Source of the DNA: Panopea generosa
Lineage: Eukaryota; Mollusca; Bivalvia; Adapedonta; Hiatellidae
Assembly: GCA_029582155.1 (NCBI GenBank)
Contig: CM055897.1
Span: forward strand, 2,897,001-2,961,000
Direction of reading: 5' to 3'
Length of the DNA stretch: 64,000 nucleotides
Shown here: in pieces, positions 9,309 to 48,898 of the stretch
Numbering within the stretch: position 1 is the stretch's first letter
Layout of the letters: every line of letters starts with the position of its first letter
Translations under genes and position numbers: made by a program
The notes under the pieces: generated by a model
Database searches by the model: none
What the model saw: the letters and a program-made list of their open reading frames with translations, nothing else
What the model was told of the DNA's origin: nothing

Positions 9309-9640
9309 AGCGACCGGTTCAGTGGTAGAGCACCAAACCCATGATCGGAGGGTCGTGGGTTCTATCCTCCGCAACGGCTACGTGTGTGCGTGGTCCAGTG
9401 GTAGAGCACCGAACCCATGATCGGAGGGTCGTGGGTTCTATTCTCCGCTACGACTACGTGTGGTGTCCTTGAGCAAGACACATTTTTCCGCAAATGCTTT
9501 ATACTGGTTCTACCTAAGTTTAAACTAATTCACTACCTGTCTAATTTCTATAATAGACTACCTGTCCTTGTTAAGACTATTTCATTAGCATTAAAAATGG
9601 TGCAAAACGGCACGTGTACGCGAGCTCCTTAGGTTCCGAT
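9309..9640 (+). mobile_element. SINE family A with two tandem tRNA-like heads
   Basis: Two nearly identical tRNA-like heads of about 75 bp follow one another (about 9309-9383 and 9389-9463). Both have GTGGTAGAGCACC and GGAGGGTCGTGGGTTCTAT. They are followed by a tail beginning GTGTCCTTGAGCAAGACAC. The same tail (AAGACACTTTATACGCATAA) follows a single head at 11168. A duplicated head suggests a dimeric SINE or a nested insertion. Confidence 0.75.
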
Positions 9641-20375: not shown

Positions 20376-20384
20376 AATCACGAT

Positions 20385-21838
20385 CAATGTCAACACGAGT
20401 AGAATCAGTACGTCAATGTCAAACTGTGTAGAACCACTACTTCAATGTCAACCTGAGTAGAACAAGTACTTCAATGTCAACCCGTGTAGAACCACTACTT
20501 CAATGTCAACCCGTGTAGAACCAGTACTTCAATGTCAACCTGAGGAGTAGAACAAGTACTTCAATGTCAACCCGTGTAGAACCACTACTTCAATGTCAAC
20601 CCGTGTAGAACCAGTACTTCAATGTCAACCCGTGTAGAACCAGTACTTCAATGTCAACCCGTGTAGAACCAGTACTTCAATGTCAACCCGTGAAGAACCA
20701 GTACTTTAATGTCAACCCGAGTAGAAACAGTACTTTAATGTCAACCCGAGTAGAACTAGTACTTCAATGTCAACATGTGTAGAACCAGTACTTCAATGTC
20801 ATCCCGAGTAGAATCAGTACTTTAATGTCAACCCGAGTAGAACCAGTATCTCAATGTCAACCCGAGTAGAACCAGTACTTCAATGTCAACCCGAGCATAT
20901 CCAATACTTCAATGTTAACCCGAGCAGAACCAGTACTTCAATGTCAACCAAAGCAGAAACAGTACTTCAATGTCAACCCAAGAACAACAAGTACTTCAAT
21001 GTCAACACGAGTAGAACCAGTACCTCAATTTCAACCCGAGTACAACCAGTACTTCAATGTCAACCTGTGTAGAACCACTACTTCAATGTCAACCTGAGTA
21101 GAACCAGTACCTGAATGTCAACCCAAGTACAACCAGTACTTCAATGTCAATCTGTGTAGAACCACTACTTCAATGTCGACCTGTGTAGAACCACTACTCC
21201 AATGTCAACCCAAGCAGAACCAGTACTTCAATGTCAACCTGTGTAGAACCACTACTTCAATGTCAACCCGAGTAGAACCAGTACTTCAATGTCAACCCGA
21301 GTACAACCAGTACTTCAATGTCAACCTGAGTAGAACCACTACTTCAATGTCAACCCGAGTAGAACCACTACTTCAATGTCAACCCGAGTAGAACCAGTAC
21401 TTCAATGTCAACCCAAGAAGAACCACTACTTCAATGTCACCCTGGGTAGAACCACTACTTCAATGTCAATCTGAGTAAAACCAGTACTTCAATGTTAACC
21501 TGAACAGAACCAGAACTTCAATGTCAACCCGATAAGAACCAGTACTTCAATGTCAACCTGATTAGAATCAGTTATTCATTGTCAACCTGTGTAGAACCAG
21601 TACTTCAATTTCAACCCGATTAGAACCAGTACTTCAATGTCAACCTGTGTAGAATCACTACTTCAATGTCAACCCAAGTAGAATCAGTACTTCTATGTCA
21701 ACCTGTGTAGAACCAGTACTTCAATGTCAACCTGTGTAGAATCAGTACTTCAATGTCAACCCGAGTAGAACCACTACTTCAATGTCATCCGGAGTAGAAC
21801 CACTACTTCAATGTCAACCGGAGTAGAAACAGTACTGT
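20385..21838. repeat. 29-bp minisatellite, about 50 copies
   Basis: The unit is TTCAATGTCAACCCGTGTAG followed by AACCAGTAC (29 bp), repeated head-to-tail with small substitutions (GTGTAG/GAGTAG/GAGCAG, CCAGTAC/CCACTAC). Copies abut directly with no spacers. Apparent reading frames of up to 72 codons are repeat artefacts. Confidence 0.95.
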
Positions 21839-26048: not shown

Positions 26049-29000
26049 CTGAAACATAAAATATACACAAACATTGCACTGTCTTTCTATATAATTTTTA
26101 TTGCAATGTTGAGGATTCTAAATGCAATATATCAATATTTTCTGTAACTATATACCCCAACTGTCGACAGTTTAAATACAGTAGAACTTCGATGGCTCAA
26201 ACCCGGACAAAATAGTTGCAGTTAAGGGTTGTTCAAGTCAAGTACTGTTCAACATCATACCATACATGTACATTTGTAAAATGTAATATCGAAATAGGAA
26301 TTCGGCTGGGAACAGATAAGTGGTTTGAGCTATATATGGTGTTCCAGCCATCCGTGTTCTACTGTAATTGCAACTATGCTGACTAAACCAATTTTATGGA
26401 CCTTCACATATAATCTGAGCAGAAGAACAGGAGTTATTTCCCTTGCATTATAATTGCCAATTAAAAACTGTCTATATAACCTATTTGTAATAAAAATTTA
26501 GATCCTATTCTCAAAATGCAGTGATCATGGTTTTTCAACTGTGGCAGATACATTTGATAAGAGTTTTTCAGACCAGCCAGACATTACGAGCAGCATTCCT
26601 GTATAGTTTTATGAATATCTTATGCATAGTTCTGCAGAAGTCTACACAAACAAAAGTTTATAAACTGACCGTGAGACAAACTTTCAAATATATTGGTTTA
26701 GAAGCTTCTTGCAAAACAAATTTTGTCTGATTTATTAACAAGTAAACTGATTTTTTGCCCCTTTTACCAGTAGAGCTTAAAGTCAGGAAAATCATAAAAT
26801 AGCATGAGAACTTCCTACCAATAATATTTCAACAAATATGTACATGTATTCACAAAAAGAATTGAATATTTTATAATATTAACTGGCCATTATCATCACC
26901 AAATTTAATCTCAATTCTGTCAAAGCTGTCAATATCAATAGAGCTCAGTTATCTATATATTTCCTGCATCCAGTATCATATATTGCGAGATTATGTGTGC
27001 AAATAGAAATACTTTTAACAATTATGATAGATGGCCAAACAAATATACCAATCACCCAAACTTTTACGACTGGAGCCACAAGAGGCCCATAAGGCAATTA
27101 ATGTAATCTACCAGTATTTAACAAAAACTGTTCTATGTTCATGCATATCACACAATAAATGAATGGCCTTTATGAATTAATATTTGCATGAATACTTCAC
27201 GTCATTTTATACCATCAAGGGCTTACAGACGATCAGTTTACCTAACCACTCATTCCTGGAATCCTGGAATGTTAACCAGCACTAGGGCCACCAATCTCCA
27301 CAAGTAACTGATAGCTTTACCACTTGAATAAGCAGAGAGAGTAAAGAATGACAATAAACGCAATGTCATATACCAAGCATAACGGAAAATGTGACCAGAC
27401 AGGTATTCAAACCCACGACCTCTCCAGTGATAGTCAGACGTATTACCAAATGAGCTTACCAGGCTAATAAATGCATACAGAGATAACAATTCCATAAATA
27501 ATATACAAGTTATATGTACCTGTTTATCTTTTTTGGACTTCTTTAGTTTTAAATGGATTTTCCTCCCCGACACGACGCTCCTATCTCCAGACTTACGTTT
27601 TGTACCTTTCTCCTTCATGTACTGCAAATATTGTACAGAGATTGTGAACATCTTATAATTGCTATATATCTGTCCAGATTCATCCTACTTCCATACATAT
27701 AATTCAGTGAATGTATGCATGTTTTTACATGTTTTATATGTTATGTACCTTCTTATCAGAAACATTAAAAATATTAATATTTGATGAGGGCCATAACTCA
27801 GACCTCAACTGAGTTGACCAATTCAGCAGCAGAATATATTATTGTTACATTGTACCTTTAACTACTGTGTTAGATTAGTGAAGATCCAATTAAAAAAGTG
27901 GGTGCTTAGTGCACACAAGGCAAAGTAATTAAACTTTTCATTATTCAAAGGTCACAGCCCAAACATTAATTGGACCAATGTTTCCAAGATCTTGTGGATA
28001 TATGACAACTTGGTCAAGATACAATGAAAAATATCGATAATCAAATAGTGTATATTTATCAATTCAAGGGCCACAACTCAGACACAGGTAATTTATTCAA
28101 CCAGATTATTAATGACTTGTCTCAAGTCTTATAGTTACAGATCCAATAAACAATGGTGGTGCTCTAAGAGAATACACAAGGTTAGATAATTTATGTAAAT
28201 TTATGATTATATAAATACCTTTAAAGATTGATAAAGATTCAATAAAAATGCAGGCGCTAGAGAGCTAGACAACATTGAAATTAACAAACGATGACCAGAA
28301 TACCTCACAATGGGCTTTGCTCAGGTGAGTTGAATACATATACTTGCAATGAAAGGAATATATTCTCAATACTATAAACCATGGACTTATATAGAAGGAT
28401 AGGAAACTTGCATCTTCAGACTAAATGTTGATAAAATAGCACTCGAAGGATTAATTATTGGTTAATAATCATTCATAATTTACAGGCAACTGATTTCTTG
28501 TACATAAAATGTAAGGTGTATGTAATTTTATATGATATGATTATATGATTAAAATGTTTCAATCACGAAAATTGATCTTGAATTAAAAATATTGAAGCTT
28601 GAAGTAAACTTCTCGTAATTTGTTTTTATTTTAGCTGCAGTATACAAATGTTGATATCAAAGTACCGGTACATCAGCAATTTTAAACACAAATTGCTGGG
28701 AATGGTATTGTTTTGTTGAGAATTTCATTCTGCAATGCAACAAGTTTGACTTGTGTTCAAGAGTTAAGATAATTAAAAACAAGATATTACTAGATTTTGC
28801 GTGGATACACAAGCGTTCATAAAATATCAATCAGTTGCCTTTCCTTCTCTATATAATTCTTTGTATTAACCAAATCATACATATTGAAGTTATTTTACTT
28901 TAAATCTTAGCTGGAGGTTTTAAATGCCAACAGCGAAAAAGCTAATAAAAGCAAAACAGTAAAACTGCCAATGTAAGAAGTCATCTTAGTTTGCTTAATG

Positions 29001-32000
29001 TCTATCAAAGCAACAACATTTTTTGATAATATGAAAGACCAGGAATCAACAGTTACATAAATTGCCTTTAATTTCTTTCTATTTCTAATAATATGACAAA
29101 GATCCATTATTTATCAACTGGAAATTTTGCCCCCCTGAAAATACTGAGGAAGATTTTCAGGGGATGAGATTTGGTACACCGGTTTATCAAATACCTTAGA
29201 CAGCTTGACTGGACCTTTGTCATCCTTTTTCTTTTTACTTTTCCTCAACTTCTTCTTCTTTACATCAAAGTCAAATGGACCACATTGTTTGCGTCCATTA
29301 TTTCACATCCCCATGGCAACAGTGGTAAAACCAGTGTGTGTTTTTCCAAAAGTGTTTGTAGTTTCAATGTCAGTGCAGGATATAAGGAATTGGCATCCAT
29401 AAAAAAGAAAACACTAAGTAATACATGTAAAACAAGGCCACAACAAAAATGATTACATTTCTGTTAAAGTTTATTCTAAACTCATAAATGTGGCTGTGTT
29501 TTTCTATCCATATCTTGCCTAGCCATGCCTTCCCTTACCTGGCTAGGTTTACTATAAATGGATCAACAGTAATGTCGTCATATTAATATAACCTAGCCAT
29601 GCCTTCCCTTATTTATTATAAATGGATTAACGATAATGTCATATCTTCCTGTTAAATAAAATGTTTGATTTATTACGAATGCATTAACAGTTATGTCTTA
29701 ATATAGCCTAAAATTATATCCAGATCATGACTGTATCGAAACAAACAACAATAATGACAGTTGCCACAAATCATGAACAGTTACTCCTAGAATGGTATTT
29801 AAGTATAAAAAAATTTCAAAATTCACAATCCCAACACAATTGTGATCTCTGTTTGATAGTATTGCAGCTGGTAATGGGATTGAATAACCAGTTTATTGCC
29901 AATTTTTACATTTGTAAACCTTTTGGAAAGCAATGAGGCTGTAATCAGTTATTTGTCACTAACCAATCAACATTCTTTGATAGAAACCATGCCATAGAAT
30001 CAATTCATGGAAAAAGACACCCAACCATTTATGTTTTTATCCGGGCTTTATACCAAGCCCTGCTTGTGTGATCGTGATCAAGGTTTGCCATGTTGATCGC
30101 CACCAAAATAATCATATGTGACAGGGACTACTTTTTATTCCTCGAATTTCATTTTTTTCCTGCATTTTACATGCATTCTGCAAGCAGAAACAAATCAAAC
30201 CATAAACAATATTTTGTTGACATTATATTAATACATGTATGTCATTTTTGAAAAATGTTCCATCAAATAACAACCAAACACTACACTAATATCAATCAAA
30301 TAAGGAAGACCTATGAACATTTATTAAAGCCTGGCTATCAATACCTTCAAATATTTTGATTAAGAAATGCTGCCCACCACCCCTCCCCTTTGGTATGTTT
30401 TAATGGAATAGCTCTGAATTTATGTAATTTCAATTTGATAAGATACCTTATGCCTTTGTTTTTCCTTATCTTTATGACCATGATGACTGTGTCTCCTTTT
30501 CTTCTTGTGACGTTCATCTGCAAATAAATATTTACATTTTATTTAATTTTATATGAATGTTACTGGTAAACAGTCAACATTAAGGACTACTAATGCTACA
30601 CAGGAAATGTCACATGGATTATCTCTATATATCAAAGCATGTTGTCACCGTCAAACTACAATTTTGCATACTCAGCCAATTCCACCATCCTTCGGTTTTA
30701 TGCCTCATTGCTAGTACATGTAAACATCCTAATTTTGGGGTATTAACAGATTGATGTGAGTGTCGAATAGCACACTCCATTAGAATTATAATCATAGCAA
30801 ACATCACTGTTGTAAAATGACAAACAAAATATAGAAGTGTCAATCAAATGTGTGTTCTAACGAATTTAATTTCAACACAGGACAGGTTATATGAGGCAAC
30901 AGTGGCATATATCTGTATTTTATTGCTGGATGAAGATCACAAAATGGATCTGAGTAGAACCACTGTCCTTAGCAAGGTAACTGGCAAACATTCTCTTATA
31001 AAGTTTTTGGAGTGAGAGAGGCTCGAACCCACGACCTTTGCCCAATCAGCCACGATAAATATGTTGTATAATGATTATTTTATGATGCAGATAAAGAGAA
31101 CCAAGTCTTATTACAATGAAGTAGACCTGATAAACAAAAGTAAGACAAGTCAGAACTAAAACTGATTTGTGTACCAATTAGTTGAGAAAATTAAAATAAT
31201 TGTTACCTGAAGATGATTCTGAATCTGATGATGATGACGATGATGAGGAAGAAGATGAGGACGATGATGATGATGAGGAGGAGGATGAACTGGAAGAACT
31301 CTCTTGATGTTTGCTGTGTCTTCTTTTCTTCTTCTTTCTCTCTAAATCAAAATAAATACAAAACAATAATATATTTATATGCTAACTCTTCTCTTCCCTA
31401 GGTTCTCAGTGTCAAAGTGGTCTACAGTGCTATCACAAGATCACTCAGTGCCAAAGTGGTCTACAGTGCTATCACAAGATCACTCAGTGCCAAAGTGGTC
31501 TACAGTGCTATCACAAGATCACTCAGTGCCAAAGTGGTCTACAGTGCTATCACAAGATCACTCAGTGCCAAAGTGGTCTACAGTGCTATCACAGATCACT
31601 CAGTGCCAAAGTGGTCTACAGTGCTATCACAAGATCACTCAGTGCCAAAGTGGTCTACAGTGCTATCACAAGATCACTCAGTGCCAAAGTGGTCTACAGT
31701 GCTATCACAGATCACTCAGTGCCAAAGTGGTCTACAGTGCTATCACAAGATCACTCAATGCCAAAGTGGTCTACAGTGTTATCACAAAATCACTCAGTGC
31801 CAAAGTGGTCTACAGTGCTATAACAAGATCACTCAGATCCAAAGTGGTCTACAGTGCTATCACAAGATCACTCAGTGCCAAAGTGGTCTACAGTGCTATC
31901 TCAATATCACTCAGTGCAAGAGTGGTCCAAGGTGCTATCACATTATCACTCAGTGCAAGAGTGGACTCAGGTGCTATCTCAATATCACTCAGTGCAAGAA

Positions 32001-35000
32001 TGATCTAAGGTGCTATCTCAATATCACTCAGTGCAAGAGTGATCTAAGGTGCTATCTCAATGTCACTCAGTGCAAGAGTGGTCTAAGGTGCTATCTCAAT
32101 ATCACTCAGTGCAAGAGTGATCTAAGGTGCTATCTCAATATCACTCAGTGCAAGAGTGATCTAAGGTGCTTTCTCAATATCACTCAGTGCAAGAGTGGTC
32201 TAAGGTGCTATCTCAATATCACTCAGTGCAAGAGTGGTCTAAGGTGCTATCTCAATATCACTCAGTGCAAGAGTGATCTAAGGTGCTATCTCAATATCAC
32301 TCAGTGCAAGAGTGATCTAAGGTGCTATCTCAATATCACTTAGTGCAAGAGTGGTCTAAGGTGCTATCTGATTATCACTCAGTGCAAGAGTGATCTAAGG
32401 TGCTATCTGATTATCACTCAGTGCAAGAGTGATCTGAGGTGCTATCTCAATATCACTTAGTTCAAGAGTGGTCTAAGGTGCTATCTCAATATCCCTCAGT
32501 GCAAGAGTGGTCTACAGTGCTATCTCAATATCACTCAGTGCCAAAGAGGTCTACAGTGCTATCTCAATATCACTCAGCACAAGAATGATCTAAGGTGCTA
32601 TCACAAGATCACTCATTGCAAGAGTGATCTATAGTGCTTTCAAAAGATCACTCAGTGCCAAAGTGGTCTACAGTGCTATCTTAAGATCACTCAGTGCAAA
32701 AGTGGTCTACAGTGCTATCACAAGATCACTCAGTGCCAAAGTGGTCAACAGTGCTATCACAAGATCACTAAGTGCCAAAGTGGTATACAGTACTATCAAA
32801 AAATCACTCAGTGTCAAAGTGGTCTACAGTGCTATTACAAGATCACTAAGTGCCAAAGTGGTCTACAGTGCTATCGAAAAAAACACTCAGTGCCAAAGTG
32901 GTCTACAGTGCTATCACAAGATCACTCAGTGCCAAAGTGGTCTACAGTGCTATAAAAAGATAACTCAGTACCAAAGTGGTCTACAGTGCTATCACAAGAT
33001 CACTCAGTGCCAAAGTGGTCTACAGTGCTATCACAAGATCACTCAGTGCCAAAGTGGTCTACAGTGCTATCACAAGATCACTCAGTGCCAAAGTGGTCTA
33101 CAGTGCTATCACAATATCACTCAGTGCCAATGTGGTCTACAGTGCTATCTCAATATCACTCAGTGCCAAAGTGGTCTAAGGTTCTATCTCAATATTACTC
33201 AGTGCCAAAGTGGTCTACAGTGCTATCTCAATATCACTCAGTGCCAAAGTGATCTACAGTGCTATCTCAATATCACTCAGTGCAAGAATGATCTAAGGTG
33301 CTATCTCAATATCCCTCAGTTCAAGAGTGGTATAAGGTGCTATCTCAATATCACTCAGTGCAAGAGTGATCTAAGGTGCTATCTCAATATCCCTCAGTGC
33401 AAGATTGATCTAAGGTGCTATCTCAATATCCCTCAGTGCAAGAGTGGTCTAAGGTGCTATCTCAATATCCCTCAGTGCAAGAGTGGTCTAAGGTGTTATT
33501 TCAGTATCACTCAGTGCAAGAGTGGTCTAAGCAGTTATTTCAATGTCTGTTGAGGTAGTGGGTTTGAACCCTGAACTTGATGTAAGAAAGTGCATATACA
33601 GACGGGTGGTTGTTCTGCTCATATTCATATGCATAGTATAATGTTTTCCTTCATTCATTCTATAAACCTGTAATGTCCACATATTTTGATAACTCCCATT
33701 CTCTACATTATCTGACTATTTTGAAATCAATGATTTGTAAATTCATAACCTAGTAACAAAGTCAGATGCATAGCAACTAAATTAGTTAACAAATCTATCA
33801 GATTCAACAGTGACATCAATAAATAAAGGATTTCAGTAAACACACGTCAGATGGATCATTATTTCAAGACAGCATTAGAATACAATTAAAATGTTCATAT
33901 ATCATATATGAGGAAGCAAGTCAAGTGATAGTTATTAATATCATCAATGACTAAAACTACAGACATTGCAGAAACTAAATCTGACATACCTCTTTCATCT
34001 TCACTATCACTGTCCGGGCTCCTACCTCGGCTACTCTGGCTACTGTGTCGCCTTTTGTAACCTTTTAAATCTGGGGAATTAAAAACAAAAACAGCTCATA
34101 ATTATGAAGTAGAAATGCAATTTACAAATAACCATACATTTTTTTTACAGTAAAATAGGCAATGTTACTGACCATAAAGATCATATCAGACCAGAATGCA
34201 CACATAACTTCTATATATACAGTTTTTTTACCTTATTAAACAGGTCGGCATTTGGTGGCTTCCCAATTAAAAAATCATGCCCCCCCCCCCCCACCCCCCC
34301 CGCAAATGAGGCATACTAAATATGATGACTTTAACTGATTAATACAAGTTTTACTAGTGAAATATATTTCAATGAAGGCCTTACACTGCTCTTGAAAATG
34401 TGTTGAAAGTATTTACGCGCTCTTACCCAAGCACTTTCATTCATTTCTGTGGTGAATCCAGGTAAAATAATTTCCTTATAATCTAAAGTCATATGAGAGT
34501 TGTGGACAGAACAGGGTGGCTCAGCCTATGTTTTGGCCAAGTAGTCTCAACTCGACCTAAATACTAATATGGCAGTCAAATGACAAAATTTTTCTTCCAT
34601 GAGAGGAGGTAATATCAGGGATCATTCTGGAATTCTAACCCAAATTTCAATGGGCCAACAGGCCGGGGGTGTGGGGGCCGCCTAGATAATACTCACTTTT
34701 ACAGTAATGTTACCTTAATATAAAATCATTTTAATTGTAAATTGACAAAAATTAATTAAATTTCTGGAATTACATAATCATTTAACAAAATGAACTTTCT
34801 AAAAGTTTATTCCCTTCTTTTCCATAACCTTTTAAATGTCCGTTAAAGAAACATAAATGCCGCTGGGAATACCGCCGTAAAACTTGCACCGGCCGATGTA
34901 TAAACTGGTATTAAAATGTCACGCAAGCGCATCGCGATACCTTATAGAAAACAAAATAAAAAGTTTTCCAGATAGGCCTAGAGTAGGTCAACCGTACATC

Positions 35001-36872: not shown

Positions 36873-39205
36873 GTAAGGAGTAATTATAAATTTATTTAAA
36901 TAAGACTTGATTAATTGGTAAGTTCTGGCATTAATTAAGTCACTGGTTCTGTACGTTATATTCTAAGCGGTGGTGTCAGCATCTTATGTACATCTAGGTT
37001 CTCCAGCCACATAACACATAATTTGATCAAGACTTGTCAAAAGAAAAAAAAGCAATTGATTGATATTTTGTGAACGTTGGCGTATTCATGCATAAATTTG
37101 CAAATTATTCTAATGAATACAAATAAAAATTCTTAAATTGCTGAATGAAATTCTCATCAAAACAATACCATTCCCAGCAATTTGTGTTTAAAATTGCTGA
37201 AATACTTCTGATTACAAAATGTTAATACAGCAACTAAATCAACAACACATTATGAGAAATTTTACTTAAAACCTAAAAATCTTTAATTCAAATCAATTTT
37301 CGTGATCAAAACATTTGAAAACACCTAAGATTGCATACATGTTACATTTTATGTACAAGAAATCAGTTGCCTGTAAATTGTGAAAGATTAATTTGCCAAA
37401 TAATTAATCCTGAGTGTTCTATTTCATTAACATTTAGTCAGGAGATGCAAGTTTCCCATCCTTCTATATAAGTCCTTGTATAAACTGATGAAATAAGGAG
37501 TACTTGACGGAACATCCTTAATGTTATTAAATCTATGTATGGACATGTAGGGTCAAAAGTTAAACACGAAAATTTACGTATTGAAAGTTTTTGAATATTG
37601 TTTAGGGTTTAGGCAAGTCACATTTTGTGTTTTCAATGTTTAAACGATCTCGACGATTAATATTTTACTACTTTAAAGGAGCAGAAGGGATGGATATTGG
37701 AATACTGAAACTCTTTATCATAGACATACACATATTTTATTGACTTAAACTTTACAGTTTCTCATCATTATACATACAATTGACAATATTTTTGCACATG
37801 ACAGCTTTAAGCACTTAGAACATTTGAAAAAATATAAAATGTATAGTATATAGACGTATCTGTTAAGTAACAAAAAAAAACATATGATTTATCCATATAA
37901 TCTAAATATTTTACCCAACCAATTACAATAAATGAATTCAGCTTATTTATTAACAACACATATATAACATTTTGATATAGCTTCTGTGACAATTTGCTGT
38001 TAAATCATTTATTTAAAATAAAGTTCGGAATATCCTTCTGCACATGTACACTGGATACTTAAAGCAAATACTAATTTAATTTGTGCCCATTGTTGGGGTG
38101 ATGTTTTTTTGTAGTTTTAAGAAAAATTGATAAATTTTTGTGTAACTTTTTTTATTCAATAATTCAAAGGGCTTAAACATCCTATAAGGACATATACAGA
38201 AACATACATAATATGACACCAATACAATTTTCAATGGTAATAAATGTTTAACAAAAAATACCGATATCAATATAAATATACGGTCATAAATATAAAAAAA
38301 TGTATTACTTTGCATAACCATTTTACATAATACATTACGATACAACAAACTCACTATAAAGAACAGGATTTCGTTACTCAAATATAATGACTTGACTGAA
38401 TAAATCATAAAAAATCAAATTCTAAAACAAAAGGTAATTCATCATCTGTACCATTCCAGTGATTGCATATTCAATCATTTGTACGTATCTTGAAAATGAA
38501 GGTGTATTATGGATGGTTGTGTTTTTTCATATTCTATCTGTATGTAAAGCCGTCCGATTAGCTCAGTCGGTAACGCGTCTGATTATCAATCCAGGAGTCG
38601 TGCGTTCGAATCCCCACAAGGTCACACTCTGCATGATGACTGATTTACGACATTGAGTCTATCACCGCTGATTCAAATGGAAAAGTTAACAGGTACTTGC
38701 GGAGATTTTATGTTCGAATATTGGATAACCCGGCTTCAACGATCCCAGGAATGAGTGATTTGGGTATCTGATTGTCTGTTAGCCATCTGTGGAATAAAAA
38801 TGGCGCTAAATATTCCCATAATGCATTGCAGATTTTGATATTATAATTCAAACATTACTCTGTTTGACAGACGGACAAATCAAGGCCAAGACGCCTAATA
38901 CAACATTTAAAATGCTTTTGTAATTACATTACAGGCATACATGGACACAATGTCATAAAAAGGCAAGCCAAACGATACTCCAGCAGTCACCCAGCGTTCT
39001 CCATGTTTAGAAATGGACCTCCATCATTTCCCAGTCTTGGTATGCACAGTATGCATGGTTCGAGTTCCGGTTCCGGTTACATCGAATGCATTACAGACGA
39101 CATCGTGTGTCCTTCCTGGTGTCTAATGGAAGATGACTGGGGATGTAAAACATGTCCCTGTGGACCAGGTATGATACCAATTGCTATCCTCTCTCTCTCT
39201 CTTTG

Positions 39206-39250
<45 letters not shown>

Positions 39251-42200
39251 GTGCGTGCGTGCGTGTGTGTGTGTGTCTTCTTATTTTCTTTCTTACTCGA
39301 TATCTCTTATATATCTCTCTCTATTCCTCTATTTGCCAATGGAGTCACCGACAATCCGGAATATAGAAGATACCTTTTGCAAGACAACACAAATAACATT
39401 TGTTCTGTTCAACAATTCACATTGCAGCGAATGGCATGGCCCCACGTATTGTCAGTGAGGGTCGGGAACAGCATCACTCCGAGGAGAAGCACGACTGTAT
39501 AGGGACAATTCTCTGTATGCTCTCTTGTAAGGATAATTATAAACTCGGACAAAGGGGAAGTAACGGCTGCCAAACATGTTCATGCGAACGAAAGGATAAC
39601 ACACGAAAGAATGACACACGAAAGAATGACACTAAAAGCGGTAAGATTTCATTAATGTTATTTTAGAAAGTCTTTGTATGGAAGATTTATGATATACTCA
39701 AAAGTTATATAACGCAATCCAAATTATTTCTGTAAAACCAATTTCCATAACGTTTCATTGTAAATGCCTGCATGTACTGGTGCTCTATGCCGATCCGTGT
39801 GTGTAGTATACCATTCTACGCATGTAGCAATACTACCTTTACTTTTAAGATAAACAATTTTTTTTTGAAAATATATATCTATTAAAATAAGTGTATGATA
39901 ATAAGAAGGTTATTTTCTAAAACCATTTGTCATAGGTCAACATATAGTTTCCATTGCACAAGCAATTTTATGAAAGATCATCCATCATGATTGTTGTGCT
40001 TTATTATTTCTGGGATAATTTCAATTATTTTACCAAAACATAATTATATGTATATTCCCATAACAACCACAGAAAACAATAAATACCTAACATAAAGAAC
40101 TTGTAAGAACAATCAGGATTGCATATCAAAGACTTAATGCATAACTGGTCTAACTCAATACAGACTAAGACTGCAGGTACAGTAGAACTTCGATGGCTCA
40201 AACCCGACGGGACTGGACAAACTAGTTCGATTCAAGAGTTGTTCGAGCCAAGTATTGTTCAACATCATATACCATATATGTACATGTGTATACATCGAAA
40301 TAGGAATTCGGCCGGGACTATATAAGTAGTTCGAGATATATGTGGTGTTCCAGCCATCCGTGTTTGAGCCAACGAAGTTCTACTGTATACTGTATACACT
40401 CGTTTAAATCATACTATGTGCTCACTATTGTCACAGTGTGTACGTAACCTACTCGGAGAGGAATTTATGTAAGCTGTTCGGTTAGCTCAGACGGTAGAGC
40501 ATTCGCCCTGTAAGCGAAGGGTCTCGGGTTCGAGTCCCGGACTGGCTGCATATTTTACTCGTCCTGTAACATTGGCGCCCAACAAGGGACTGTGACTGAT
40601 ATATATTCCGAGAAACATTTCACATGATTCTCTGTTCTCTATGGAAATTCGGGACGAATTCCAAATTTGTGAGGGAATATGTCACAGTGTGTACGTAACT
40701 TACTCGGAGAGGAATTTATGTAAGCGGTTCGGTTAGCTCAGACGGTAGAGCATTCGCCCTGTAAGCGAAGGGTCTCGGGTTCGAGTCCCGGACTGGCTGC
40801 ATATTTTACTCATCCTGTAACACTATTATAAACAACTACCCAGACCATAACACCGGTTTATATGTACTGCTTATTTGACAGTTGCTCTGTTTAAAAAGCA
40901 TTCATTATGACGATCCAGGATGGAGGACATATACTATTTCATGAGCATCACATGAAATCCTGGATCTGTTCCTGGATGGTAAATGCTCTGTACTACTTAT
41001 AAAGTATTTAGGTACTTCTTGCAAAGTATTTACAATGAGTATGTTTTTGTCTGCAACACTTTAGCGGCTTCATCAAATACTTAGGCTACATAATGCTTTT
41101 CATATACTAAATATATTTATTTAATTACATTATGTCTCCGTCCGTATTTTTCATATATAGTGTATGTGTAAATGTAAAATTTTGAGTGCATACTATATAT
41201 AGGTATGTTATTAATCAATATATATACTGAACGTTACAGCTAACCCGCCACTTTTGACTACCATCTGAAAACTGATTTGACGACCCATTTCAATATTTAT
41301 GAAAGTATTCAAATGACGGGTTAGCTGTTCCGTTCAGTATATTTTAAATTGCAAGCGAACTCGTTTGTAAAACAGTTGATTAGAACCGGAGATTAGTTTA
41401 AACAGATTTTATTGCCATAAATATACAATTTGGTCGGGTCACAAGTTCTTACAACGTTAGTTACGACCCTTCCCTAAATACAATGTTACATAAATTAATA
41501 CATGGCTAAAATGTTGTTAGAAAGTTATACTTTTATAAACAAATACAATGCTTAAGCGAAAACAAACATATTCTCTGAATAGTATACAATATACATGTAA
41601 ACACTGGGAAGAATAAGTAAAGTGCGAAATGCTTAGTACATTGATCAAGCAGAGGATAAACAGTAATTTGAAAAGATAATAGTGGAAAGATAGAAGAGAA
41701 GATATATAGATGTACATGTCAACCAAACATCATTGCTCTGTTATTTAACATTAATCATTAGGCGGTATACGTGGTCGAAAGTGTCCACTCTCTTTAATAA
41801 ACTTATGAACGCATCTAATTAAATGTTCATTATGTTCTTGTTTTAATTCGGTGTTTCCATACAAGATAATGTTTATATTAAGCGGGTGAAAGTTCCTTAT
41901 AGATTGAAAAAGTTGGACTCTTTGAGTTGATTTCTATTGCATTTAAAGAAATAATGAGTTGCATTTTCAGTCTCACACAGAGAGGAATTTCGTAAATGAT
42001 TTAAAAATAAGTCGTTATTTAAGTCGCTGCACATGTTACGCAAACGTGCATGTAAGACCGACAATGATCGGGTACCAAAATAATAATATATTTGAACCTC
42101 TGTTCTTTGAAATAACGAGTTTGTAAGTTTATTTTTGAATATATTAAGTGATTCGGAATTGCGTATTTCGGGTGATAATTCGTTCCATAGTTTAATAGAC

Positions 42201-45200
42201 GATGGTAAAAATGAATTGGAGAACAAAACTGTTCTTGTTTGAAACATTTCAAAATTGTCCCAGTTTCTGAGATTATATGGGTTTATATTTTCTACAGTTG
42301 GAGGAAGAAGGTCAGTATAAAAATCTGGAACTAAACCGTTCTTCATCTTATAAATAAGTACTAATTTTTGTAGTTTCCTGCGATCTGACAATGAAATCCA
42401 GCCTATTTCTTTCATGAGATTAACAATTGAAACTGAACGAGTTAACCTTGTTACAATGTTGACAGGCAATATCAACATTATAATTGTAAAGAATTGACCA
42501 GTCGGTATTCGAAATAAGATCATTAAATCTGGGGAAATCTGCCCTTTTGTAAATCCAAACACGTCTGGTGAATGTCGAATTAATAAGTTGACACAACTGT
42601 ACATGTATATATGTACCATAATGGTCAGTGACGTCACGGGGCGTTTCTATAATACCAGAATCGTGAGTTTCTATAGAACTCAAAATAACGATGGGGTCTA
42701 TTAATGTCGACGTCCTGTTTGTTACACGTGTGGGCTCATTTATAACATTGGTCAAATTATTAAGTAAAACAAAATGTCTTTCAAACGATGATTATTTGCG
42801 GCCAATTGATCTTCGTTTATATCACCTAAAATAATAACACTGTTTGAAATTTCAAAGGCCTTTTCGATACTAATATTTAAGTCATCCCAAAAATGTACAG
42901 GGCCATTCGGTTGTCGGTATAGGGTACAGATAAAAATAGTTTTATTTTGATTTTTTATTTCAATCCAAATCGAGTCTGAAAGAGGATTTTCTAGTTTTTC
43001 AACTCTCTTTGCAATCAAATTATTTGAAACATAAACAAGGAGCCCTCCAGAATGCGCAGTGCTATCCTTCCTATATACATCAGAATGTGTATCAATGTAT
43101 AATATATCATCAGATACCATTTCAGTAAGATGTGTTTCGGTAAAACACAATATATGTATGACAATTAATGACGCCACTTACGATTTTGATACCGAATGAA
43201 TGACATCTATAATAATTTATTATTTAATTTTATTTTCCGACCAATTACATTAACTGGATAGCCAATTCTACTGGTCCGACGCAAGGATGCACATTTCCAC
43301 TTTGTGTGAATGGACGTAAGTAACAGTATCTGATCGTACATTATTTAAATGCCAATTAAATACTCTAACGAAATACACACTTACATATAGTGCAGTCAGT
43401 CACCTGCGATTCATCTGAACTCGTACAAGATGCTAGTCTAACACGTTATCTGTCTAAACTAAACTCTACACAGAGATAGAAACCACGTTCAACAATCTAC
43501 AGTCAACACAATATACAAATTGAAACAAAAGCTGAGACTACATACATAAAATTTAACTTTATAATATAAAAATTATATGAGATCAAATAAACAATCTATG
43601 CTTACAAGTTGTAAAACTTTATGTGTTATCCTGTGTAATATTTATGTCTCATATATATGTACCTAATTGTAACAGTAAAATACTATAATTGATAATTATG
43701 AAAAGTATTTAATACTGCGATTTAATATTTGTATTTTTGTGGTATTTATCTGTGATAATTGTTTGTGTTCCATGACATATATATAAATATATATATTCAT
43801 AAATAAATCTGTCTATCATTTCCAACAGAAAACCCAAACACTGGCCCAAGTTCGAATTCAGGTATGACGTCACTTCCGATTGGCGGTAAAGGATCTCTTA
43901 CATCAGACAAAGGTATCTACAACTGTGTATGTATCTTTTTACTCTACATGTTTCATTTCAGATAATTGAACTATCCTTTATGTGTGAACCCACATTACAA
44001 CGGGCCGCTGATGACCATGATGTCGTCTGCCAGTTACACAGTGGTTATCAGACAACAACCATCGTCAGCATTTGATTTAAAAAAAAATTTAACACATACA
44101 CATTTCCATTTATTGTGTTTGAATTTTTTTTTTGTAATTTTTTATTTTCATTCTCCAATACATGAAATATTACAATATGCTAATACAATTTCAATTAACA
44201 ACATGTATAGTACTTACATATATAAATAACAGATTCTTTTATACAGATTATATCTTATTTTAATATTATCATTTGAATAGTGAATAACATTGGATTTTAC
44301 CATAATTATGGTGCTATTAAATTAGTATCAATTTTGGAGGCAACAAATCAATGTTTTGAGTATTTTGTCTCTTAAATAATTAGAAAGTTGAAAAAAAAAC
44401 AAACAAAAAAAACAACAAAAAAACAAATTCAAATTGTGTTTGATTTTTAGGTTAATAAAATAAATAGAAATAACTATCATCGCCCAGTTCACTGAATCTA
44501 CGATCGTCAGTTTCTGTATAAACTTTCGGTTTATGGAGATTAGTATAGAATCCATTTTGGTCTAGCTTTGCAGCATAAACTTGAACAAATTTCAAAAGCA
44601 CACATTATAATACCTTACTATCCATTTCTTTCTTGATATGCAGACTTCGATTTTAGAATGACTATTTCAGCGCATTGTAATGATGCTCGCTGAAGCGTTT
44701 TTAGACAGTCATGTGTTTAATAATAGATCTGTATTTCCAATATAAAAATGATACAATGTCCAGCCTGGACTCATATACTTTTAGATAATGACACTTCGTT
44801 GCGTTTGTTGACACCAGTATTTCTCTTGTTATTATAAAGATGGCTGATCCCAAGCTGAGGTATTTTGTTCTATGAAATTGATATTGATTATTTATCTATT
44901 TAAAATAAACATATACTAAATATTATAGCAATAACTACCGCATATAGTATTTTGTCCCAAAAGTTGATGCAATGTATGCTATATCGTGCTAAGTAGTCTA
45001 TCCCAGAGCCTCATATCTCCCGACTCCGGTCTATTAACCCCTAGTGAAAAAGCAGGGAATTCTATACCTGTCCAAGCAATTAAACGCTTACTAATATATG
45101 ACGTCATCCAACTACCAGTTGAAAACTGACCAATCGACGTGCTCAAATGTGGTTTTCCCAACATTGCTATTTAACGGATCCAATCGTCCCACAGACTAGT

Positions 45201-48200: not shown

Positions 48201-48898
48201 TTACACATGGTGACCATGTGCTGATGCATTCGATGTTTAAGTCTAGTTTTGTGCTAATATTTAATACACACTTTGATTATAGCTCTCAGCCCTCCCCCAC
48301 CGACGACAACCAGGATACCTAGTATTATCTCCCTGTTAAGGGTGTGTCCGGACGCAGTCCATTGCATGAAGACTTGTACGACAGGATACACATTAACAGC
48401 ATCTAATTTGAAGGGATGTCCACAATGTACCTGTAACCAAGGTGAGCTACCTAGTGGCGGTATCTGGGTACTTTCCCGAGTCTCCCCAGTTCCTGCCAAT
48501 TCTTTAAAAGTTGCTCTGTATAAAATTTGTTGCATTAACGATATCCCATCGCTATATACGAGTTTCAATACTCCACCAGCCCCATCCCTCAACCCCACAC
48601 ATTTCTTTCATTGTTTTATATCTAATAGTGTACTCTGATGCTTATTTATTATTCTGGAGCGTGAGACAGGCCTATCTTCCATTATTATACATTTTGTTTT
48701 TAACATGTACGAACGTATACCATGACCAATTTCTACCCCCCCCCCCCCCCCACCCCCCCCCCCAGATGAGGTTATAATATTATGATTAAAAAAGTATTAT
48801 ATGATAGAGTTGTGTCCCTTTTTATGGTTCGGAGTAGTGCTATTAAATACTGTTCTTTGAGAAACATGTCCTATGACAGTCCCCCCCCCCCTCCCCCC

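Follow-up and report, generated by a model that had tools for sequence, protein, structure and literature searches.

The window analyzed here, a stretch of 64,000 nucleotides from the bivalve Panopea generosa (GCA_029582155.1, contig CM055897.1, positions 2,897,001 to 2,961,000 of the forward strand), contains a complete TRIM of 394 bp at 40429-40822. The element is very probably an LTR retrotransposon of the Helenus type, non-autonomous and non-coding; Helenus elements are TRIMs in which each LTR holds a tRNA-like unit. Inverted and chimeric copies of the same family in the host genome break at or close to the oligo-T run that follows this unit. Based on these copies we tentatively suggest, with somewhat less than even confidence, that the Helenus RNA ends in oligo-U at a Pol III terminator in the 3' LTR. 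The U-tail would then prime reverse transcription on the RNA of the element or of a Gypsy retrotransposon, giving U3...U3 and chimeric DNAs that would be inserted by the Gypsy integrase with a 4-bp stagger. The features of the element are as follows:

40425..40428, no strand: TSD CTAT, left copy (direct reading, flank comparison)
40429..40571, + strand: 5' LTR, 143 bp, TGTCAC...GTAACA (repeat search)
40476..40549, + strand: tRNA-Thr(TGT)-like unit of the 5' LTR (ARAGORN, Rfam)
40483..40494, + strand: A box TAGCTCAGACGG of the 5' LTR (direct reading)
40527..40537, + strand: B box GGTTCGAGTCC of the 5' LTR (direct reading)
40553..40556, + strand: oligo-T run TTTT of the 5' LTR, candidate Pol III terminator and break point of inverted junctions
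40572..40679, + strand: interior, 108 bp, non-coding
40573..40590, + strand: PBS TGGCGCCCAACAAGGGAC, presumably tRNA-Lys-like
40669..40679, + strand: purine tract GTGAGGGAATA (27 of 33 interiors end in the same 14 nt)
40680..40822, + strand: 3' LTR, 143 bp (repeat search)
40727..40800, + strand: tRNA-Thr(TGT)-like unit of the 3' LTR (ARAGORN, Rfam)
40804..40807, + strand: oligo-T run of the 3' LTR, putative RNA 3' end
40823..40826, no strand: TSD CTAT, right copy (direct reading, flank comparison)

The original prediction described two TG...CA repeats of 143 bp with three differences, and this agrees with the repeat search, where the two direct repeats came out at 143 nt each with 98% identity and differ at LTR positions 21, 47, and 133 (2.1%). 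The 108-bp interior, the PBS, and the purine tract could all be read in the window as described: the interior begins with a T followed by the PBS, which starts one base past the 5' LTR, and it is closed by the purine tract adjoining the 3' LTR. No ORF of at least 110 amino acids overlaps the element. The flanks read ...CACTAT and CTATTA..., giving a TSD of 4 bp. A TSD of 4-5 bp had been predicted; the shorter length holds while the longer one does not, as the duplication extends to 5 bp in 0 of 24 TSD-bearing copies. Both boxes of the tRNA-like unit are visible on direct reading of the LTR, ARAGORN calls a tRNA-Thr(TGT) in each of the two LTRs, and the Rfam tRNA model RF00005 scores 47.9 bits for each unit (gathering score 29), confirming the tRNA-like sequence with A and B boxes proposed for each LTR. 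The C at position 33 and the weak acceptor stem were also borne out by reading. In isolation the unit folds with no advantage over shuffled versions of itself (z -0.38), which agrees with its weak acceptor stem. The element sequences TGGCGCCCAACNNGGGRCT and GTGAGGGAATA may be compared with the LTR ends, PBS, and purine tract of Gypsy families. Directly upstream of the element there is a MITE-like unit at 40178-40387 with 29-bp TIRs (93%), and a relative is found at 26177-26358 (80%).

The host assembly comprises 1.47 Gb in 39 contigs, and a COX1 search aimed at the identity of the host gave no match. The first 21 bases of the LTR have 345 exact matches in it and a reversed-pattern control has none, so the element is neither a product of chance nor a lone oddity. 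When the assembly was searched with the LTR as DNA query, 2086 first-look candidates came up and 40 of them were scored. The best-match set consists of 35 loci, namely the window and 34 loci around the best LTR matches. Two full LTRs and one interior are present in 20 of these loci, and the LTR pairs of these full elements diverge by 0.7-7.0% (median 3.5%). Five loci have one partial LTR, seven are tandem or complex, and three have a single LTR match, one of them (L016) being a Gypsy chimera. A position-ordered sample was taken from 100 listed LTR-start matches and covers all 45 groups on contigs C1-C3 and ten loci on C4-C5. It contains 56 LTR-start clusters at 55 loci: 13 full elements, 12 single full LTRs, 3 tandems, 22 partial copies, 4 truncated single LTRs, and 2 inverted copies. 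Eight of the 55 loci were already in the best-match set, and the pooled total is 82 loci.

The original prediction had called for full elements, solo LTRs, and target duplications to be tabulated. When copies with repeated flanks are excluded (3 of 33 full elements and 3 of 16 single LTRs), a perfect 4-bp TSD is found in 17 of 30 full elements and in 7 of 13 single full LTRs from the 82 loci, against 34 of 1804 mismatched flank pairs (1.9%) in the control. The 13 single full LTRs include the chimera L016, and L084 and L085, for example, retain a purine-tract-like flank; thus not all single LTRs are clean solo LTRs. The full copy L018 and the single LTR L035 have matching flanks, as recombination between LTRs predicts. 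Pairs of copies that lie at separate places but have the same flanks (L074/L076, L094/L095, L113/L114, L116/L117, and L023/L027) are local or assembly duplicates. A plain tandem tRNA array, which would have spoken against a TRIM, is contradicted by these copies, as they have the form of LTR-interior-LTR elements, single LTRs, partial copies, and LTR-interior tandems.

Five clear inverted junctions were found without targeting. Three came from the best-match loci (L017, L040, and L063, the last being the same locus as L016) and two from the position-ordered sample (L102 and L110). All five break at the T-run or within approximately 3 nt of it. In L040 the 3' LTR runs up to the T-run and is followed by reverse-complement U3 that reaches LTR base 1; CTCT flanks this copy on either side. 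L017 turns back into the interior at GAGAAA and has TAAG on both sides. These two are inserted fold-backs with 4-bp TSDs. L102 and L110 have kept the U5 side of the T-run and lost the tRNA side. A targeted pattern, in which the T-run is followed by reverse-complement U3, has seven exact matches in the genome (L040 included) and none in the control. The wider structures at the seven matches differ, and L071 consists only of the reversed arm, with no recognizable LTR ahead of the T-run. The claim for the T-run rests on the five untargeted junctions and on seven (one of them shared) obtained with a pattern in which the T-run is already assumed. In the position-ordered sample, the 22 partial copies were classed by their BLAST pieces, and a few that also belong to the first set were read, so junctions may have been missed. 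L011 was considered as a sixth inverted junction and dropped, because its tail could just as well be regular U5 that has lost one base and is cut off at LTR position 137. In L074 and L076, LTR position 132, just past the T-run, is joined directly to interior position 64 with loss of the PBS, and this join may correspond, in direct orientation, to the T-run junctions.

Both outer U3 ends could be recognized in six inverted units, a set that excludes L065, L070, and L071. A perfect TSD is present in L017, L040, L063, and L067 (the latter with TGGG on both sides), and this suggests that the fold-back predates insertion. L068 and L069 have no perfect 4-bp TSD. In L065 both arms carry the same bases where they depart from the window LTR, and the arms of L068 do likewise with other bases, suggesting that at least some of the fold-backs are separate events; the reversed arm of L067 carries the bases of L065. 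When 322 element positions were scanned for pairing with oligo-U, the join sites in U3 and in the interior overlapped the positions ranked second and fourth. The best match is the purine tract, and no join was seen there. Because of a CTC microhomology, the fold-backs into U3 and into the interior place the RNA end only to within 3 nt. Taken as sequence patterns, the T-run junctions fit an oligo-U-ended RNA that primes reverse transcription inside a Gypsy particle, short of proving transcription by Pol III.

The inverted copies might instead be DNA rearrangements that took place after insertion, by slippage or double-strand break repair at microhomology between T-runs and A-runs, and they would then be uninformative with regard to the RNA end. 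T-runs and purine tracts do offer natural microhomology, the flanks shared by L074/L076, L094/L095, L113/L114, and L116/L117 indicate that local duplication is active, and two of the six units above have no perfect TSD. We find such an origin rather unlikely, however, as the other four, L017, L040, L063, and L067, combine perfect TSDs with LTR-terminal U3 at both outer ends, which is integrase-like, and as the T-run/U3 junction recurs on arms with different bases. Another explanation is that the T-run is a hot spot because the reverse transcriptase stalls at the foot of the tRNA-like fold, whichever polymerase made the RNA. The copies that keep the U5 side, L102 and L110, fit stalling as well as they fit an RNA end. 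Stalling on the PBS side alone, on the other hand, does not account for the U3-R copies that end at the T-run (L017, L040, and L063), and it leaves the complementarity between the T-run end and the joined sites unexplained; this explanation is considered doubtful to a similar degree.

Priming from an oligo-U RNA end may also account for the chimera L063. It consists of a Helenus LTR, approximately 16 nt of the PBS, a Ty3/Gypsy segment encoding reverse transcriptase, RNase H, and integrase in the sense orientation, and a reversed Helenus LTR that is cut at its T-run, and the whole is flanked by TTAA on both sides. The Gypsy domains were identified as RVT_1 (4e-21), RNaseH (4e-32), H2C2 (3e-17), and rve (9e-11). 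Over 1.5 kb the Gypsy part matches eleven further copies in the host at 96-97% identity, and L063 lacks approximately 126 bp of the reverse transcriptase region present in those eleven. Homologues of the Gypsy piece are found in the bivalves Solemya and Saccostrea, among the named ones, and also in fishes and bacterial bins. The 5' junction of L063 lies near the end of the PBS, and it is near this point that plus-strand strong-stop DNA ends. At the 3' junction the Gypsy sense sequence GGAAAAATGCAGCCA is complementary to the Helenus RNA end UGGCUGCAUAUUUUU, except for a two-base bulge. The same junction lies within approximately 13 nt over which Gypsy and the reversed LTR are homologous by chance, and this homology could also guide a switch between DNAs. 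The two ends of the Helenus parts in L063 thus correspond to intermediates formed when an LTR element is reverse transcribed, which would be expected had both RNAs been present in one particle. A single chimera is a single event. The Helenus PBS pattern has 179 exact matches in the host, 100 of which are listed (C1 to C12:31.9 Mb), and among the matches listed none lies within 100 kb of the listed chimera-type Gypsy copies on C1-C5. That Gypsy may therefore use another primer, or it may not be the usual partner. The original prediction of mobilization by an unrelated LTR element gains support from one Helenus-Gypsy chimera. A PBS shared by Helenus and the Gypsy of the chimera was not found near the listed C1-C5 Gypsy copies among the matches listed.

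The tRNA-like unit could also be an idle passenger in an ordinary TRIM transcribed by Pol II. A TTTT(T) run inside the 5' LTR should end most Pol III transcripts early, and the C33 and the weak acceptor stem favor a passenger as well. In the 57 LTRs of the position-ordered sample, moreover, conservation is no higher in the A and B boxes than elsewhere in the tRNA unit (p = 0.67), and in the same LTRs the unit as a whole is not clearly more conserved than the compared parts of U3 and U5 (p = 0.07). Since the boxes vary like the remainder of the unit, the earlier suggestion of selection for the promoter rather than for decoding is not shown within the host family. On the other side, the commonest box sequence is kept in most LTRs of the best-match loci (A box 48/62, B box 51/62), where the oligo-T run after the tRNA unit is mostly TTTT or TTTTT followed by C. 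A T-run of at least four is present in 50 of the 57 position-ordered LTRs, and the inverted junctions cluster at this run. Transcription by Pol II with an idle tRNA-like unit is therefore judged unlikely.

That the element is just a tandem pair of tRNA genes or SINEs is extremely improbable, for while ARAGORN and Rfam find two good tRNAs and a tRNA-headed SINE is abundant in the host, the copies show LTR ends, PBS, purine tract, 4-bp TSDs, and single LTRs, and the likeness between LTR and SINE is limited to the surroundings of the A box, where 16 of 18 bases agree. A tandem tRNA array was rejected on the same family structure and TSDs. The SINE in question (38521-38680; 4161 first-look candidates in the host, 40 scored) has a tRNA-like head with A and B boxes, like the LTR unit, but displays no LTR structure in a 20-copy profile. 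Its similarity to the LTR stops with the A-box region, and an origin of the LTR unit from this SINE is therefore not supported. At 9316-9462 two tandem 76-bp tRNA-like units are followed by a stretch with GTGTCCTTGAGCAAGACACATTTTTCC, and by eye this has the look of a dimeric tRNA SINE.

Regarding the primer, the PBS is presumably tRNA-Lys-like, and tRNA-Lys, as originally predicted, is a candidate. Two exact tRNA-Lys patterns both had zero matches in the host assembly. The PBS varies among the 33 interiors, with CAACGAGGGACT in 11, CAACGTGGGGCT in 4, CAACAAGGGACT in 3, and others in the remainder. This variation suggests either more than one primer tRNA or drift.

The replication cycle that we infer for the element, from the Pol III start and the RNA ends to the primer, the limits of R, the self-priming, and the Gypsy helper, would be as follows. 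Pol III would start at the tRNA-like unit of the 5' LTR and occasionally pass the first oligo-T run, and the transcript would end at the oligo-T run of the 3' LTR. R would then correspond approximately to the tRNA unit plus the T-run, U3 to the first approximately 47 bp of the LTR, and U5 to the last approximately 14 bp. A Lys-like tRNA would prime the minus strand at the PBS, the strand switch would take place via R, and the purine tract would prime the plus strand. Ty3/Gypsy enzymes would copy the element and insert it with a 4-bp stagger. Occasionally the oligo-U 3' end of the RNA might pair with Gypsy RNA, or with sites rich in purines within the element, and prime DNA synthesis there. The products would be fold-backs or chimeras that have U3 ends at both sides, and some of them may still be inserted.

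If this is correct, the junctions provide evidence, at the level of sequence, for a Pol III-transcribed LTR retroelement in an animal and for a second, SINE-like priming route within the LTR particle, and the genome would preserve a fossil map of the Helenus RNA. In any case, the T-run junctions and the one chimera constitute genome-only evidence on two proposals made by Kojima (2024), namely the Pol III promoter and the mobilization by Gypsy. They also offer a simple test for other Helenus families, in which inverted copies may be gathered and their breaks located. Annotators should be warned that what is predicted as a tRNA-Thr gene in such a genome may be an LTR.

The window contains some further features. 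Two satellites are found, one at 31405-33529 with a 39-bp unit in 54.5 copies, which gives long repetitive ORFs, and one at 20384-21836 with a 29-bp unit in 50 copies. An apparent broken non-LTR retrotransposon lies on the minus strand at 41897-43177; one piece is an endonuclease (PF03372), and a second piece has no Pfam match and has homologues that include one from Dreissena. A weak Antistasin-type domain at 48273-48638 (E 0.014) is below the curated cut-off, and the ORF 39003-39458 has by eye a resembling cysteine pattern and no Pfam match.

Among known systems, biv-TRIM of bivalves is, like the window element, an animal TRIM with solo repeats and tandem arrays. It is described as having repeats of 202-218 bp, an interior of 77-80 bp, no clear PBS, and the PPT GGGGAGA in most copies (PMC6934838). 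The window element differs from this description in having repeats of 143 bp, an interior of 108 bp, the purine tract GTGAGGGAATA, and a PBS. Cassandra of plants is likewise a TRIM with a Pol III promoter in its LTRs and as such a precedent for the window element, and its RNA is said to run from the 5' to the 3' small-RNA unit (PMC10886601, introduction). Its LTRs carry 5S rRNA and not tRNA, while Rfam at gathering scores finds nothing in the window apart from the two tRNAs. In one Cassandra paper from open-licence PMC, searched by keyword, neither self-priming nor inverted copies were found, and a search of open-licence PMC for self-primed, fold-back, Pol III LTR retrotransposons gave no match.

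For the tRNA-bearing equivalent of Cassandra that the original prediction raised, a lack of known examples is not supported: TRIMs with tRNA-like LTRs have already been published under the name Helenus, and they are found in fungi, animals, and one plant (Kojima, 2024; PMC10886601). According to this paper the Pol III promoter is proposed, without experimental validation, and the mobilization of animal Helenus by Gypsy is inferred from likeness of the PBS (PMC10886601). Inverted or fold-back copies and Gypsy chimeras are without mention in a word search of its main text (PMC10886601). Helenus elements are non-coding TRIMs of 311-1263 bp, for which solo LTRs and tandem arrays are known (PMC10886601), and the 394 bp of the window element fall within this range. 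They have in each LTR a tRNA-like unit with A and B boxes, the consensus being TRGCY..YGG and GGTTC (PMC10886601, section 3.5), as well as a PBS after the 5' LTR and a purine tract before the 3' LTR, all of which are present in the window element. The TSDs of animal Helenus are 4 bp (PMC10886601), the length found in the host family. Pteriomorphia bivalves have 51 Helenus families, and in bivalves the primers include tRNA-Lys and seven families can encode tRNA-Thr (PMC10886601); the window element is alike in its tRNA-Thr-like units, and its primer may likewise be tRNA-Lys. Assigned by structure, with the named families compared by their description, the window element thus belongs to the already published Helenus kind.
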